Source: Phycisphaerae bacterium
Lineage (GTDB): Bacteria > Planctomycetota > Phycisphaerae > Sedimentisphaerales > Anaerohalosphaeraceae
Direction: 5' to 3'
Length of the DNA: 33,371 bases
Assembly (NCBI GenBank): GCA_016782835.1
Contig: JADHXS010000010.1
Span: 1-33,371 of the forward strand
Made by a program: the position numbers and the translations under genes. A model generated the notes under the pieces. The model had not been told where the DNA came from and made no database searches. It worked only from the letters and a program-made list of their open reading frames with translations. The stretch's first letter is position 1; the number at the start of each line of letters is the position of its first letter. Positions 2,885 through 31,418 of the stretch are shown in pieces.

Positions 2885-2948
2885 TTTATATCAAAAAGCA
2901 AATATCAAATGTTAAAAATGAGGAAACCGCCTTCGGCGAATATTTTTT

Positions 2949-4358: not shown

Positions 4359-5009
4359 TTGGCTTTGATTGCGGCTGTTTTTTTGATTTTTTTTGACAGG
4401 ATTAACTGGATTTACGGGATATATATTTAACCATGGAGGACACGGAATGACACTGAAAGAGCGGGTTTAACCATGAAGAGCGTGAAGGACTTGAAGGTTT
4501 TTTTGCCACCGAGGGCACAGAGTTCGCAGAGGGAATCGTGAGGAGCATTTTCAACGCTCTTATCTGTTCAGAGCCGGTCGGGGTGCTCTCCCGATAAATC
4601 GGGATGTGCTTTCCGACCCATTTTAATCAGCCGTCACTTGACGTGACGGACGATTCCGGGGGGATTATTGGCCCACTTCCACGCCGGGTTGCGTAAGGTC
4701 AATCATAATGATGTTACCGCGGAGCAATGGGAGCAATGCAGGCAATGTCCGCGCCGAATGAGAAAAATCAGGCATTTGCTGTTGATACTGTCTTAAAATC
4801 ACCCTCCTAAACCTGTCTTGGCTGTGTAAATCAGACTTAACAGTTTTCTTGAAAATTGTCAATCCTTCACAAATTCATGGCCGGATGAATTTTTGCGTAG
4901 AAAATATGGAACGACCGGCCCTGCGCTTGCGATTCGGGCTTCTGTTTGGGGTCATACAGGGTCGTGATAATCGGGTACAAAAAAGCGGTGTTTCTTTCCT
5001 ATAAATTTC
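4359..5009. other. Intergenic region between tilS and gap: repeats and stem-loops, no gene supported
   Basis: No convincing gene is present. From 4387 to 4534 is a mosaic of phrase repeats. At 4576-4617 a nested stem-loop has outer arms GGTCGG/CCGACC and an inner TCCCGAT-AA-ATCGGGA hairpin. At 4631-4649 CCGTCAC and GTGACGG form a hairpin around TTGAC. A minus-strand reading frame at 4862-4665 uses a TTG start, has no ribosome site and runs through repeat-like sequence, so I do not call it. The stem-loops could belong to a small RNA, but I see no promoter tied to them. Confidence 0.6.
4387..4534 (+). repeat. Mosaic of phrase-like intergenic repeats
   Basis: Three modules occur in a row: GACAGGATTAACTGGATTTAC (reverse complement of the module near 951-983), TTAACCATGAAGAG followed by variants of GAAGGAC (4467-4498), and CCACCGAGGGCACAGAG followed by TTCGCAGAG (about 4506-4532). 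The second module recurs at 11500-11533. These phrase-like sequences have no coding potential. Confidence 0.7.
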
Positions 5010-7582: not shown

Positions 7583-7610
7583 GAATCAGTGTTAATCTGT
7601 GTCTAAAAAA
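7583..7610 (+). repeat. Phrase-like repeat directly ahead of rpe
   Basis: Contains AATCAGTG and TTAATCTGTGTCTAA (7592-7606), the latter identical to 1002-1016 ahead of ispD. It ends within three bases of the rpe start codon and replaces any normal ribosome site. Confidence 0.7.
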
Positions 7611-14218: not shown

Positions 14219-14221
14219 AAA

Positions 14222-14310
14222 AATGCAAAATGTAAAATGAATAATGTAAAATGGTGGACGGGCCAGAGGCCCGGACTTCAATAATTTTGATTTTTAATAT
14301 TTAATTTTTG
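14222..14310 (+). repeat. Composite repeat leader ahead of ruvB
   Basis: Three parts: AAAATGTAAAATGA-type tandem phrases (14222-14252), a hairpin CGGGCC-AGA-GGCCCG (14259-14273), then an AT-rich stretch with TATTTAATTTTTGATTT. The same order of hairpin and AT-rich stretch precedes rnr at 29161-29219. No Shine-Dalgarno sequence lies between it and the ruvB ATG. Confidence 0.65.
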
Positions 14311-14320
14311 ATTTGATGAT

Positions 14321-15373
14321 ATGGCTATAGATAGAGTATTAAGTTCGGATTCACGCGGCGACAAAGAAGAGCAGTTCAATACTGCCCTTCGTCCGCAAAG
14401 TTTAGGCGAATGCATCGGACAAAAGAACGTCAAGGAAAAGCTGTCCATCGCGATGCAGGCCGCCCACCAGCGCAGCGAGCCGCTGGAGCATATTCTTTTT
14501 TATGGCCCGCCGGGGTTGGGTAAAACCACGCTGGCCCATGTCATCGCCAACGAAATGGGCGCCAACATTCGCGTCACCTCCGGCCCGGCCATCACCAAGC
14601 AGGGCGACCTGATGGGCCTCTTGTCCAACATCAATACCGGTGACGTGTTGTTCATCGACGAAATCCACCGCCTCAGCGCTCCCGTCGAAGAGTTTATCTA
14701 CCCGGCGATGGAAGACTTCAAAGTTGATTTCACCGTCGACAGCGGCATGCACGCCAAGACCATCAACTTCCCGCTGAAGCGTTTTACGCTCATCGGAGCC
14801 ACCACCCGCGCCGGTCTGCTCAGTGCCCCATTGCGGGGACGCTTTGGCATCCTGCATCATTTGGAATTTTATAACGTCGATGAACTGACCGACATTCTCA
14901 AACGCTCGGCGGGACTCCTCGAATTAAAAAGCGCCGACGGCACACTGGAAATGGTGGCCTCCCGCTCCCGCGGCACGCCGCGTGTCGCCAACCGCCTCCT
15001 CAAGCGCGTGCGCGATTACGCGCAGGTCAAAGGCTCCGGCAAGCTGACCACCGACATCGTCGAGAATGCCCTCAAGATGGAGCAGATTGACCATCTCGGT
15101 CTGGACGAACTGGACCGCAGCTTCCTGCGGACTTTGATCAAAGTCTATGACGGCGGCCCGGCCGGTATCGAAGCGATGGCCGCAACGCTCGGTGAAGAAC
15201 GGGATACGCTGGAGGATGTCGTTGAACCGTATCTGCTGCAGATCGGCTTTGTCCGCCGCACCAAACGCGGCCGCGAAATAACCCCCGCCGCCTGCAAACA
15301 TCTCGGCCTTAAACTCACCGGTGGAAAAAAGAACAGTGGGGGAGTGACCCTATTTGAAGGTCATGAGGAATAA
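14321..15373 (+). CDS. ruvB: Holliday junction branch-migration helicase RuvB
   Basis: AAA+ motor that drives branch migration with RuvA. Walker A is GPPGLGKTT (residues 62-70), Walker B is FIDEIHRL (111-118), sensor 1 is IGATTRAG and the arginine finger region is LRGRFGI. The C-terminal winged helix contains GLDELDRSFLRTLI and the closing RTKRGREITPAA. 350 residues is normal, with a slightly extended tail. The start ATG has no ribosome site; bases before it are repeat-derived. A small membrane protein gene begins on the base after its stop. Confidence 0.98.
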   Translation: MAIDRVLSSDSRGDKEEQFNTALRPQSLGECIGQKNVKEKLSIAMQAAHQRSEPLEHILFYGPPGLGKTTLAHVIANEMGANIRVTSGPAITKQGDLMGLLSNINTGDVLFIDEIHRLSAPVEEFIYPAMEDFKVDFTVDSGMHAKTINFPLKRFTLIGATTRAGLLSAPLRGRFGILHHLEFYNVDELTDILKRSAGLLELKSADGTLEMVASRSRGTPRVANRLLKRVRDYAQVKGSGKLTTDIVENALKMEQIDHLGLDELDRSFLRTLIKVYDGGPAGIEAMAATLGEERDTLEDVVEPYLLQIGFVRRTKRGREITPAACKHLGLKLTGGKKNSGGVTLFEGHEE

Positions 15374-28983: not shown

Positions 28984-29029
28984 AAAGGCGTCTCGTCGAT
29001 AATAGACTATCGACAGGACGCCTTTTCTT
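28984..29029 (+). terminator. Large terminator of rpsT
   Basis: Arms GGCGTC-TC-GTCGATA (28987-29001) and TATCGAC-AG-GACGCC (29008-29022) pair in two helices with a small internal loop, followed by TTTTCTT. Confidence 0.9.
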
Positions 29030-29039
29030 ATGGATGTTG

Positions 29040-29095
29040 GGAACGCGGGCGTCCCGCCCGCTTAAAAGGAACGCAGACTTCCAGCCTGCGCAAAA
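29040..29095 (+). repeat. Two tandem 28-base hairpin units
   Basis: Unit 1 (29040-29067) and unit 2 (29068-29095) align without gaps. Both start GGAACGC and end AAAA. Stem arms are GCGGGC/GCCCGC in unit 1 and GCAGAC/GCCTGC in unit 2; one G-C pair has become A-T, a compensating change. Confidence 0.75.
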
Positions 29096-29118
29096 GCGGT
29101 GTGGCGTGAGCTGTCTGA

Positions 29119-29150
29119 TTGTCATCCCGGCCTCCGAGCCGGGATCCAGA
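29119..29150 (+). repeat. GTCATTCCCGC-type hairpin repeat, copy 3
   Basis: TTGTCATCCCGGC, CTCCGA, GCCGGGATCCAGA. The stem is intact (CCCGGC with GCCGGG), but its bases differ from copy 1, showing that pairing is kept while sequence drifts. Confidence 0.7.
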
Positions 29151-29160
29151 ATAAAAACAG

Positions 29161-29219
29161 TTTCGGCCAGGGGCCGAGTCCTTATTTTTGCTATTTAATG
29201 TTTGATCTTTGATTTTGCT
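29161..29219 (+). repeat. Composite repeat leader ahead of rnr
   Basis: A hairpin CGGCC-AGG-GGCCG (29164-29176) is followed by AT-rich phrases TATTTAATGTTTGATC and TTTGATTTTGC that end at the rnr ATG. The leader of ruvB (14259-14320) has the same parts in the same order. No Shine-Dalgarno sequence is present. Confidence 0.65.
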
Positions 29220-31418
29220 ATGGAACGACTCAAGAAACAAATTCTGACAACATTGACCCGGCGGGATTACACGCCACTTTCGACCAAAAAGCTGGCTCAG
29301 TCCATCGGTGTTTCATCACAGGAGTACCCTCAATTCCAAGCTGCTCTTGAACAACTGCGTCAAAACCAGCAGGTGGTAGTGGATGCAAGGAAAAACATCA
29401 ATCTTCCCACAATGGGCCATCGTGTCATTGGCACATTTCGTGCCAACGCACGCGGATTTGGCTTTGTGATTCCGCTAGCGCCGAATGCCTACGGGGATTT
29501 ATATGTGTCGCCCGAAGATACCGCAGGCGCGATGAACAATGACACTGTCGTGGCCCGCGCGGTCAAAAAAGGCCATCGCGACGGGCAGATGCGGTATTCC
29601 GGGATTATTATCGATATCATCGAACGCGGCAGTGAACGTTTTGTCGGAACGCTGGTTCGTAACAAAGGGCTGTGGATGGTTCAGCCGGAAGGCAAAGGGT
29701 TTTTCCCGTCAATTTTGGTCGATGATGCGCCAAGCAGCGGAGCAAAAGAAAACGATAAAGTGGTGTTGGAGATTGTCAGCTTTCCCACCGAACACATGCC
29801 CGGCCGCGGGGCGATTGTCGAAGTGCTCGGGCGGGCCGGTCAATATGATGCGGAAATTCGCTCCATCATCGCCCGTTATGGACTGCCGGCCGAATTTGAT
29901 ACGGCTTGTCGTGACCAGGCTCGGTTAGCGGCCGAAAATTTCAAACCGGACCCGTCACGACATCGAAGCGATATAACCGATAAGGTCATTGTCACGATTG
30001 ACCCGCCGGATGCGCGGGATTTCGACGATGCGATTAGCCTCAAAAAAGACAAATCCGGCAACTGGCAGTTGGGCGTACATATTGCCGATGTCAGCCATTT
30101 CATCCCGCAGGAGTCTGCGCTGGATAAAGAGGCTCGTCTTCGCGGCAACAGCGTTTACTTGCCCCGGAAAGTCATCCCCATGCTGCCGGAGGTATTGAGC
30201 AACGGGATTTGTTCGCTTCAGCCCGGTCAGAAGCGTTTCGCCAAAAGTGCCCTTATTACTTATGATGCCGAAGGAAATGTATTGGGTGCCGAGTTTGACA
30301 ACAGCATCATCTGTTCCAGAAAACGATTGACCTATCTGGAAGTCGATGCGATTTTAAAGGGCAAAGCCAAAGACTATCCCGGCGAAGTTGTCGCACTGCT
30401 CAAAGACATGGAGCAACTGGCGCGGACGATTGAAAAACGCCGCGAAAAAAACGGCATGTTGCATCTGGACCTGCCTGAAACAGAACTGGTCTATGACGAA
30501 AAAGGCCGCGTCATCGATGCTCACCCGGCTGATGACAGCTATCCCCATACGATGATTGAGATGTTCATGGTCGAAGCGAATGAAGCCGTGGCGGGTCTGT
30601 TGGATCGGTTCGGCGTCCCGTTCATGCGGCGAATTCATCCGGATCCCGATGCAATTACCTCTAAAAATCTCGGCCGCTTTGTCAAAATCTGCGGTCTGAA
30701 AGTCCCTCGGCATCTGAACCGCAATGCCATTCAGGATTTGCTTGCGGCGGTGAAAAATACACCACTCTCATACGCCCTCAATATGCACGTCCTTCGCAGT
30801 ATGCAGAAGGCCGAGTATTCGCCGCTGCACATCGGGCACTTTGCACTGGCTTCGACCCATTACTGCCATTTCACCAGTCCCATCCGCCGCTATGCGGATT
30901 TGCTGGTGCATCGCCTCATCGATTGTTATGTCCACGGCAAACTTACCAAGATTGGCCTCGACGAAGTCCTCTCCGAAGGCGAACTCATCGAAATCGGCAA
31001 ACACATCACCTTTACCGAACTGCAGGCCGCCGATGCCGAAAAAGAACTTAAAACCGTACTCATTTTACAGATGCTCTCCGAACGCATCGGCCAGGACATG
31101 GACGTGGTTGTCTCCGGCCTGACCAATTTCGGCATCTTTGTCCAGTGTATGAAGTTCGGCATCGAGGGGCTAATCGAGCCGGGCGATTTGGGACTGGATG
31201 AATGGAAATTCGACGAACGCGCCCAAGCCGTCGTTGGTAAATGGTCCGGCGAAAGCGTCCATCTCGGCCAACTCATGAAAGTTCGCATTGCCGCCGTCAA
31301 TGTCGCTGCCCGCCAACTGTTCCTGGCCCCCGCAGAACCCCTCGTCAAAGAACGCCCAACCATCAACCGCCGAAAATTCAAACGCAAACACCACACGCAC
31401 AAAAAAAGCCGACGTTAA
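29220..31418 (+). CDS. rnr: Ribonuclease R
   Basis: A 3'-5' exoribonuclease that digests structured RNA. 732 residues in family order: N-terminal helix-turn-helix (MERLKKQILTTLTRRDYTPLSTKKLAQSIG), cold-shock OB domains (FRANARGFGFVIPLAPNAYGDLYVSPED), the RNB catalytic domain with the metal-binding acidic cluster DPPDARDFDDAIS near residue 260, FTSPIRRYADLLVHRL, an S1 domain near 625-690 (VVVSGLTNFGIFVQCMKFGIEGLI) and a basic tail KHHTHKKSRR. ATG 29220 is the likely start; an upstream TTG at 29202 lies in the repeat leader. There is no ribosome site. It is a full-length, unremarkable protein with an unusual 5' region. Confidence 0.96.
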   Translation: MERLKKQILTTLTRRDYTPLSTKKLAQSIGVSSQEYPQFQAALEQLRQNQQVVVDARKNINLPTMGHRVIGTFRANARGFGFVIPLAPNAYGDLYVSPEDTAGAMNNDTVVARAVKKGHRDGQMRYSGIIIDIIERGSERFVGTLVRNKGLWMVQPEGKGFFPSILVDDAPSSGAKENDKVVLEIVSFPTEHMPGRGAIVEVLGRAGQYDAEIRSIIARYGLPAEFDTACRDQARLAAENFKPDPSRHRSDITDKVIVTIDPPDARDFDDAISLKKDKSGNWQLGVHIADVSHFIPQESALDKEARLRGNSVYLPRKVIPMLPEVLSNGICSLQPGQKRFAKSALITYDAEGNVLGAEFDNSIICSRKRLTYLEVDAILKGKAKDYPGEVVALLKDMEQLARTIEKRREKNGMLHLDLPETELVYDEKGRVIDAHPADDSYPHTMIEMFMVEANEAVAGLLDRFGVPFMRRIHPDPDAITSKNLGRFVKICGLKVPRHLNRNAIQDLLAAVKNTPLSYALNMHVLRSMQKAEYSPLHIGHFALASTHYCHFTSPIRRYADLLVHRLIDCYVHGKLTKIGLDEVLSEGELIEIGKHITFTELQAADAEKELKTVLILQMLSERIGQDMDVVVSGLTNFGIFVQCMKFGIEGLIEPGDLGLDEWKFDERAQAVVGKWSGESVHLGQLMKVRIAAVNVAARQLFLAPAEPLVKERPTINRRKFKRKHHTHKKSRR

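Follow-up and report, generated by a model that had tools for sequence, protein, structure and literature searches.

The ruvB and rnr leaders of a Phycisphaerae bacterium probably belong to a dispersed family of non-coding palindromic repeats

The leaders of ruvB and rnr in a Phycisphaerae bacterium are probably, with a likelihood that we put at slightly above three in four, copies of a palindromic repeat that is dispersed and non-coding, a passenger of intergenic spacers of the MITE/REP type. A full copy measures about 100 nt and is composed of an arm of A-rich 7-nt units, a short perfect GC hairpin whose sequence is variable, and an arm of T-rich 7-nt units. The initial annotation had noted the same order of parts in front of both genes, namely a GC hairpin, AT-rich phrases and the ATG, and this order is indeed seen in both sequences. 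Two explanations had been offered: a mobile 5' UTR as the source of an unusual translation start, and a repeat that has replaced the old leader.

The window, that is, the whole stretch of 33,371 nt that was analysed, is an entire contig (C22) of a 2.25-Mb genome (G000), the host of which was placed in the class Phycisphaerae of the Planctomycetota from RuvB matches (the closest RuvB is 90% identical, and the matching relatives are labelled Phycisphaerae, Sedimentisphaerales or Planctomycetales). Genes were called in this analysis with a simple codon model and the 5'-most acceptable ATG, and the genomes compared are incomplete metagenome-assembled genomes.

The leaders of ruvB and rnr

The ruvB leader (14219-14320) extends directly from the ruvA stop codon to the ruvB ATG at 14321 and comprises, in this order, five A-rich 7-nt units, GTGGA, the hairpin, GACTTCAATAA, T-rich 7-nt units, GAT and the start codon. 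Its three main parts are:

14219-14254, plus strand: A-rich arm of the ruvB copy, five units (AAAATGC AAAATGT AAAATGA ATAATGT AAAATGG) right behind the ruvA stop; from the sequence and Tandem Repeats Finder
14259-14273, plus strand: GC hairpin of the ruvB copy, CGGGCC-AGA-GGCCCG; from the sequence and a hairpin scan
14282-14317, plus strand: T-rich arm of the ruvB copy, units TTTTGAT, TTTTAAT and ATTTAAT, ending 3 nt before the ATG

The AT-rich phrases described initially are present and are in fact 7-nt units, for which Tandem Repeats Finder returned a period of 7/14 in the ruvB leader. The extent given at that time omitted the A-rich arm at ruvB and a palindrome at rnr, both of which are parts of the repeat. 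The proposed hairpin formula, CGGCC-AGR-GGCCG, describes the rnr copy (29164-29176), but the ruvB hairpin does not fit it even with one mismatch. The literal pattern CGGCCNNNGGCCG was rejected as a search key, as it matched exactly only at rnr and gave 3 matches with one mismatch versus 1.76 expected.

Among 40 relatives, the top matches of the ruvB leader are the ruvB leaders of G021, which belongs to another genus (82% identity over 94 nt, at the same position), and of G008, which belongs to the same genus (88% over 71 nt); the A-rich arm is conserved in both. These leaders are closer than any paralogue in the own genome, the best of which reaches 74% identity, and therefore the ruvB copy is, as far as sequence comparison can tell, the older one, inherited at the ruvA-ruvB junction across genera. 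The identity with the G021 leader exceeds that of the fourfold sites of ruvB between the same two genomes (62%). This could reflect selection and keeps a function conceivable, but low-complexity words, or copies that exchange sequence, are also able to raise the identity of the leader. In orthologous leaders, the stem of the hairpin has changed and its pairing has been kept (CGAGCC-GAA-GGCTCG in L123, CGGGC-AAA-GCCCG in L031), and in G008 the place of the T-arm is taken by another repeat module (...ATTCGTGTTAATTCGTGGCTAAAAA), which also terminates the ruvB leaders of G001, G004 and G009. In many relatives, the gap between ruvA and ruvB amounts to only -1 to 12 nt. A sigma-70 scan revealed no promoter carried by the ruvB element.

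The rnr leader consists of GTCATCCCGGCCTCCGAGCCGGGATCCAG, a hairpin, T-rich 7-nt units and the ATG at 29220, and it lies within a larger insert:

29030-29219, plus strand: insert between the rpsT terminator and rnr, about 190 nt without counterpart in relatives, a mosaic to which at least three repeat families contribute; from spacer comparison and BLAST
29038-29061, plus strand: repeat TGGGAACGCGGGCGTCCCGCCCGC inside the insert, with copies identical in 24 of 24 positions at L243 and L257 (BLAST)
29121-29149, plus strand: palindrome GTCATCCCGGCCTCCGAGCCGGGATCCAG (GTCATCCC...GGGATCCAG), the first module of the one-armed composite, of which the stretches analysed contain about a dozen copies
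29163-29177, plus strand: GC hairpin of the rnr copy, TCGGCC-AGG-GGCCGA, from a hairpin scan; it has a weak resemblance to a terminator
29180-29216, plus strand: T-rich arm of the rnr copy, composed of 7-nt units and separated from the ATG by 3 nt; about 25 stretches are related to it

The rpsT-rnr spacer is 269 nt long in this genome versus 83-102 nt in seven relatives (G001, G005, G006, G008, G009, G019 and G021), all of which have the terminator in the same place and a clean junction from which the insert is absent. The only promoter match at rnr in the sigma-70 scan precedes the insert. The hexamer TATGGA is found at both ends of the insert (29029-29034 and 29219-29224), at the right end across the start codon of rnr, and may be a 6-nt target duplication or a product of chance. 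The spacer of G004 (L144) differs from those of the other relatives in that it is 1016 nt long and seems to contain an extra gene on the other strand; a search for rpsT in G010 gave no match. That a repeat has entered the leader is thus supported by the insert-free rnr junction of the relatives and the tiny ruvA-ruvB gap, together with the high copy number and the presence and absence of copies in sister species that are described below.

A repeat family at the gene edges of the host genome

The ruvB leader has 46 BLAST matches in its own genome, and a lag-7 detector revealed 71 arrays of T-rich or A-rich heptads, of which 69 lie outside called genes, in stretches totalling 1.12 Mb of the 2.25 Mb, a number that is no density estimate because part of these stretches, on which all own-genome statistics are based, had been selected for containing matches. 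Five second-order Markov shuffles of intergenic DNA contained 0, 0, 1, 1 and 2 arrays, and the initial judgement that the likeness of the two leaders exceeds chance is confirmed by these numbers. An earlier, strict definition of the unit had yielded only 26 arrays. Behind 31 of the 71 arrays, at a distance of up to about 40 nt, there is a GC hairpin with a perfect stem of 6 bp or more, versus about 0.9 in shuffles, and the array-linked hairpins have 14 different stems, all of them perfectly paired.

The copies follow two layouts. The first is arm-hairpin-arm (ruvB, L218, L227, L183 and L185), in which the A-rich and T-rich arms are roughly complementary but degenerate. In one-armed copies, a palindrome of the type GTCATTCC/GTCATCCC...GGAATC/GGGATCC replaces the other arm, and the order is GTCATTCC...GGAATCTATTTAAACAGCC or GTCATCCC...GGGATCCAG, hairpin, ATTCCTTAATTTT and T-arm (rnr, L207, L210, L225 and others). 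The window contains a third copy:

2888-2919, minus strand: T-arm that follows a hairpin of the TCGCCGAAGGCGG type; both neighbouring genes are on the plus strand, and the arm points to the stop of the upstream one at a distance of 63 nt

The perfect pairing of so many different stems would be expected if the hairpin acted in the transcript, as a terminator, a processing site or a barrier to exonucleases, and thereby fixed how much upstream relative to downstream product an operon yields. Such a role would also fit the terminator-like, albeit weak, score of the rnr hairpin and the location of most heptad spacers between genes of the same direction (16 of 76 tandem spacers are 7-nt periodic versus 4 of 56 others, in the ruvA-ruvB loci of the class but outside that junction itself). 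Nevertheless, it is quite improbable: a palindromic mobile repeat equally predicts perfect pairing, no terminator-like site was found at the ruvB copy, the ruvB and rnr leaders fold no better than shuffles, and the share of tandem spacers among those with arrays in the own genome (46 of 59) is close to that among all spacers (309 of 464). A special structured RNA was rejected as well, on the same folding result and on a search with Rfam at gathering score that gave no match in the window.

The placement of the arrays relative to starts and stops, obtained by lag-7 detection and BLAST, does not single out the start codon. The T-arm faces a stop in 36 of the arrays and a start in 28. Measured against uniform placement in the same spacer, 19 array ends lie at most 12 nt from a stop, versus 5.9 expected (p < 5e-5), and 8 lie at most 12 nt from a start, versus 4.4 expected (p = 0.014). 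Thus, the arms adjoin coding edges more often than uniform placement would have it, clearly at stops and weakly at starts. Part of this abutment is to be expected, because the target gaps are tiny, as exemplified by ruvA-ruvB and by the short stretch between the rpsT terminator and rnr; the rest may reflect the avoidance of promoters and terminators.

It had also been claimed that neither gene has a ribosome site, which is true at ruvB and rnr but nothing special, as 60% of the 841 ATG genes sampled have no Shine-Dalgarno (SD) 4-mer 3-13 nt upstream. The SD motif is in use in this host, since the 4-mer precedes 40% of these genes versus 13% of shuffled leaders, yet by this test most genes are without it. 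The element-free orthologues whose sequences were read have no SD motif either, ruvB following ACG in G005 and TCAT in L035, and rnr following TTTTTGAACAATT in G006. Therefore, the element did not create the SD-free starts, and the absence of SD is a trait of these genes and of the lineage that is not borne by the element.

These results bear on the possibility that the repeat is a translational element, that is, that an AT-rich, SD-free arm beside the ATG, bound for example by a protein of the S1 or cold-shock type, permits the ribosome to start. A precedent has been published for the TAACTGA heptamers of Beggiatoaceae (PMC4679880), and the arms that end a few nucleotides from the ATG at ruvB, rnr and a few other genes, the mild excess at starts and the retention of the ruvB leader across genera at 82-88% identity would all agree with such a function. 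It is nonetheless unlikely, given that copies face and adjoin stops more often than starts, that the element-free orthologues keep their SD-free starts, that in sister species the T-arm is sometimes followed by an SD-like GAGG/AGGAG motif and then the ATG (e.g., TTTTTCAAAGAGGAAAGATAATG), and that the leaders have no extra RNA stability. A distribution of genome matches that is random relative to starts, which had been named as the outcome that would speak against a start-linked leader, is not literally what was found, in view of the mild start excess; the start-codon reading still falls because stops are preferred. The mobile 5' UTR of the initial annotation is not supported, given the same placement, the commonness of SD-free genes and the orthologues, and with it a false lead, the mobile SD-free translation start, is removed. 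Annotators of these genomes should be prepared for such elements at gene edges, where they can mislead the prediction of starts and terminators.

Two further repeats of the genome should be mentioned. A second dispersed family, also at gene ends, is represented in the window at 936-1016, 4388-4434 and 7584-7606 (AATCCAGTTAATCCTGTCTAAAAAA and AATCAGTGTTAATCTGTGTCTAA) and has copies elsewhere in the genome; the module GTGTTAATTCGTGGCTAAAAA, which is kindred to this family, closes the ruvB leaders of four sister species. At G000:C13:56068-56385 (L002 and L003), a stretch of about 223 bp that contains a two-armed element beside a gene end is present in two tandem copies.

Distribution, turnover and comparison with known repeats

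Of 148 genomes in the order, 43, representing 29 of 83 genera, contain the pattern TTCCWYAATTTTGATATTTGATTTTTGAT with up to 3 mismatches, whereas none contains its reversed control; among 294 genomes sampled across the phylum, only the own genome has the pattern. Within this sample, the family thus appears to be restricted to one order of Planctomycetota.

Two species of one genus, G139 and G080, reveal how the copies behave on a shorter time scale. Copies of about 95 nt are 97-99% identical at unrelated loci, and a copy at G139:C8 is missing from the aligned junction G080:C55, although the flanks are 95-97% identical. The spacer without the copy has diverged at this junction, where no target duplication is visible, and for this reason the ends of the element are not defined to the base. 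At two loci common to both species, the same arms enclose a wholly different hairpin (TGCCGC..GCGGCA versus CCCTTAGGG), the length of one arm differs by a single, exact 7-nt unit, and G139 has nested insertions, all of which suggests that copies exchange or convert one another and that arms expand and contract in 7-nt steps. In four stretches of G139 (L320, L323, L327 and L351), ACCTATACCTAAGGCACAGGTGGC, sometimes together with GCTCTGCCACAGG, is nested in the A-arm of copies with a CCCTYAGGG hairpin, which looks like copying en bloc.

The repeat occurs in junctions that have no element in relatives, for example, rpsT-rnr; some copies have persisted at one site for a long time, as at ruvA-ruvB, and copies appear to be homogenised or exchanged, with arms that change in 7-nt steps. 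As dispersal and presence/absence suggest, new copies would arise by transposition or recombination. The position beside the ATG would follow if the repeat inserts into gaps of a few to about 30 nt within operons or behind terminators, and the copies at ruvB and rnr would be functionally near-neutral. A link to a transposase was not found at the nine Y1_Tnp loci of the genome, which have no heptad arrays beside them (one has GTCATTCC, and some have simple GGCC/CGCC palindromes), and mobilisation by a RAYT was rejected on this ground; no target duplication could be established.

Like MITEs, the repeat has many copies at non-homologous intergenic sites and is present or absent at the same junction in relatives (rnr; G139:C8 versus G080:C55). 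Correia/NEMIS and ERIC are other small intergenic repeats of about 100 nt that are non-coding and have inverted arms. The resemblance to bacterial MITEs and to the enterobacterial elements RU-1/2/3 (PMC2759123) includes a length of about 100 nt, the lack of coding capacity, inverted arms, intergenic location and presence/absence; in contrast to MITEs, the arms are degenerate 7-nt arrays and seemingly no fixed terminal inverted repeats, and neither a target duplication nor a parent transposon was identified.

Planctomycetes are among the phyla with REPs, according to PMC3733652, PMC2817692 and PMC3116915, and as described there the REP/BIME/REPIN elements with their RAYT (Y1) transposases share with the repeat a high copy number of intergenic palindromes, stems that are kept paired, and composites. 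The two differ in that the hairpins of the ruvB and rnr copies, on reading of the sequence, have no GTAG or CGTC tetranucleotide beside them, in the missing heptads at the Y1_Tnp loci, and in the heptad arms, which are not a part of REPs as presented in the abstracts of the three papers.

The nearest published system is that of the TAACTGA heptamers of marine Beggiatoaceae, some Cyanobacteria and Bacteroidetes, which form intergenic arrays, many of them directly upstream of mostly SD-less starts (MacGregor 2015, PMC4679880), and which differ between related strains by indels mostly in 7-nt steps (PMC4679880). Intergenic arrays of a 7-nt unit are common to both systems. However, the unit of the Phycisphaerae repeat is degenerate (approximately TNTTTRM), with TTTTGAT/TTTTAAT/ATTTAAT and AAAATGT in place of TAACTGA, the repeat includes a GC hairpin together with either a second arm or a palindrome, and its arrays face stops more often than starts. 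No earlier description of this hairpin-heptamer family was found in the literature searched for heptamers in Planctomycetes and for Phycisphaerae repeats; what is described here is an order-restricted intergenic repeat of unusual build, with degenerate 7-nt arms around an exchangeable hairpin.

Periodic spacers across the class

A 7-nt periodicity extends beyond this family. Of the 36 ruvA-ruvB spacers with a length of 40 nt or more across the class, 26 have a window with 7-nt periodicity, versus 0 when shuffled, 1 at lag 6 and 2 at lag 8, and so do 20 of 132 other spacers in the same loci, one of which (L068) is a run of N and has to be discounted. The words at the ruvA-ruvB junction vary by species (TTTTGAT, GTAGTTC, ACTAACG, GAACGTT, AAGACCA and others).

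That one junction is filled by different heptad words in different species, and that orthologues differ by one exact 7-nt indel, would be in line with local slippage, by which the arrays arise in place and the likeness of copies is convergence on AT-rich words, with no defined dispersing element. This is highly improbable, as the composite layout, the junction sequence ATTCCTTAATTTT and nested insertions are common to non-homologous loci, near-identical copies reside at unrelated loci of G139 and G080, and the family is confined to one order. A dispersed palindromic repeat remains the preferred reading of the ruvB and rnr leaders, and the class-wide periodicity is broader than the hairpin-heptamer family. 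One could imagine an active process with a 7-nt step that continually rewrites spacers near hairpins and stops at coding edges, but this is rather doubtful. To our knowledge, no process is known that generates degenerate 7-nt arrays and swaps palindromes. The sharp periodicity of spacers across Phycisphaerae, with many words and a concentration at some operon junctions, constitutes a testable puzzle.

Several ruvA-ruvB spacers (L053, L061, L070, L076 and others) have words that are unrelated to TTTTGAT, namely AAGACCA, GAACGTT, ACTAACG and GTAGTTC, some of which form inverted arms. In L113 and L115 (G001 and G004), units resembling CACGAAGGA (CCACGAAGGACACGAAGAGCACGAAG / CTTCGTGACCTTCGTGCTCTTCGTGG) form the long inverted repeat of which the same spacer consists, and they recur about every 9 nt, not every 7.
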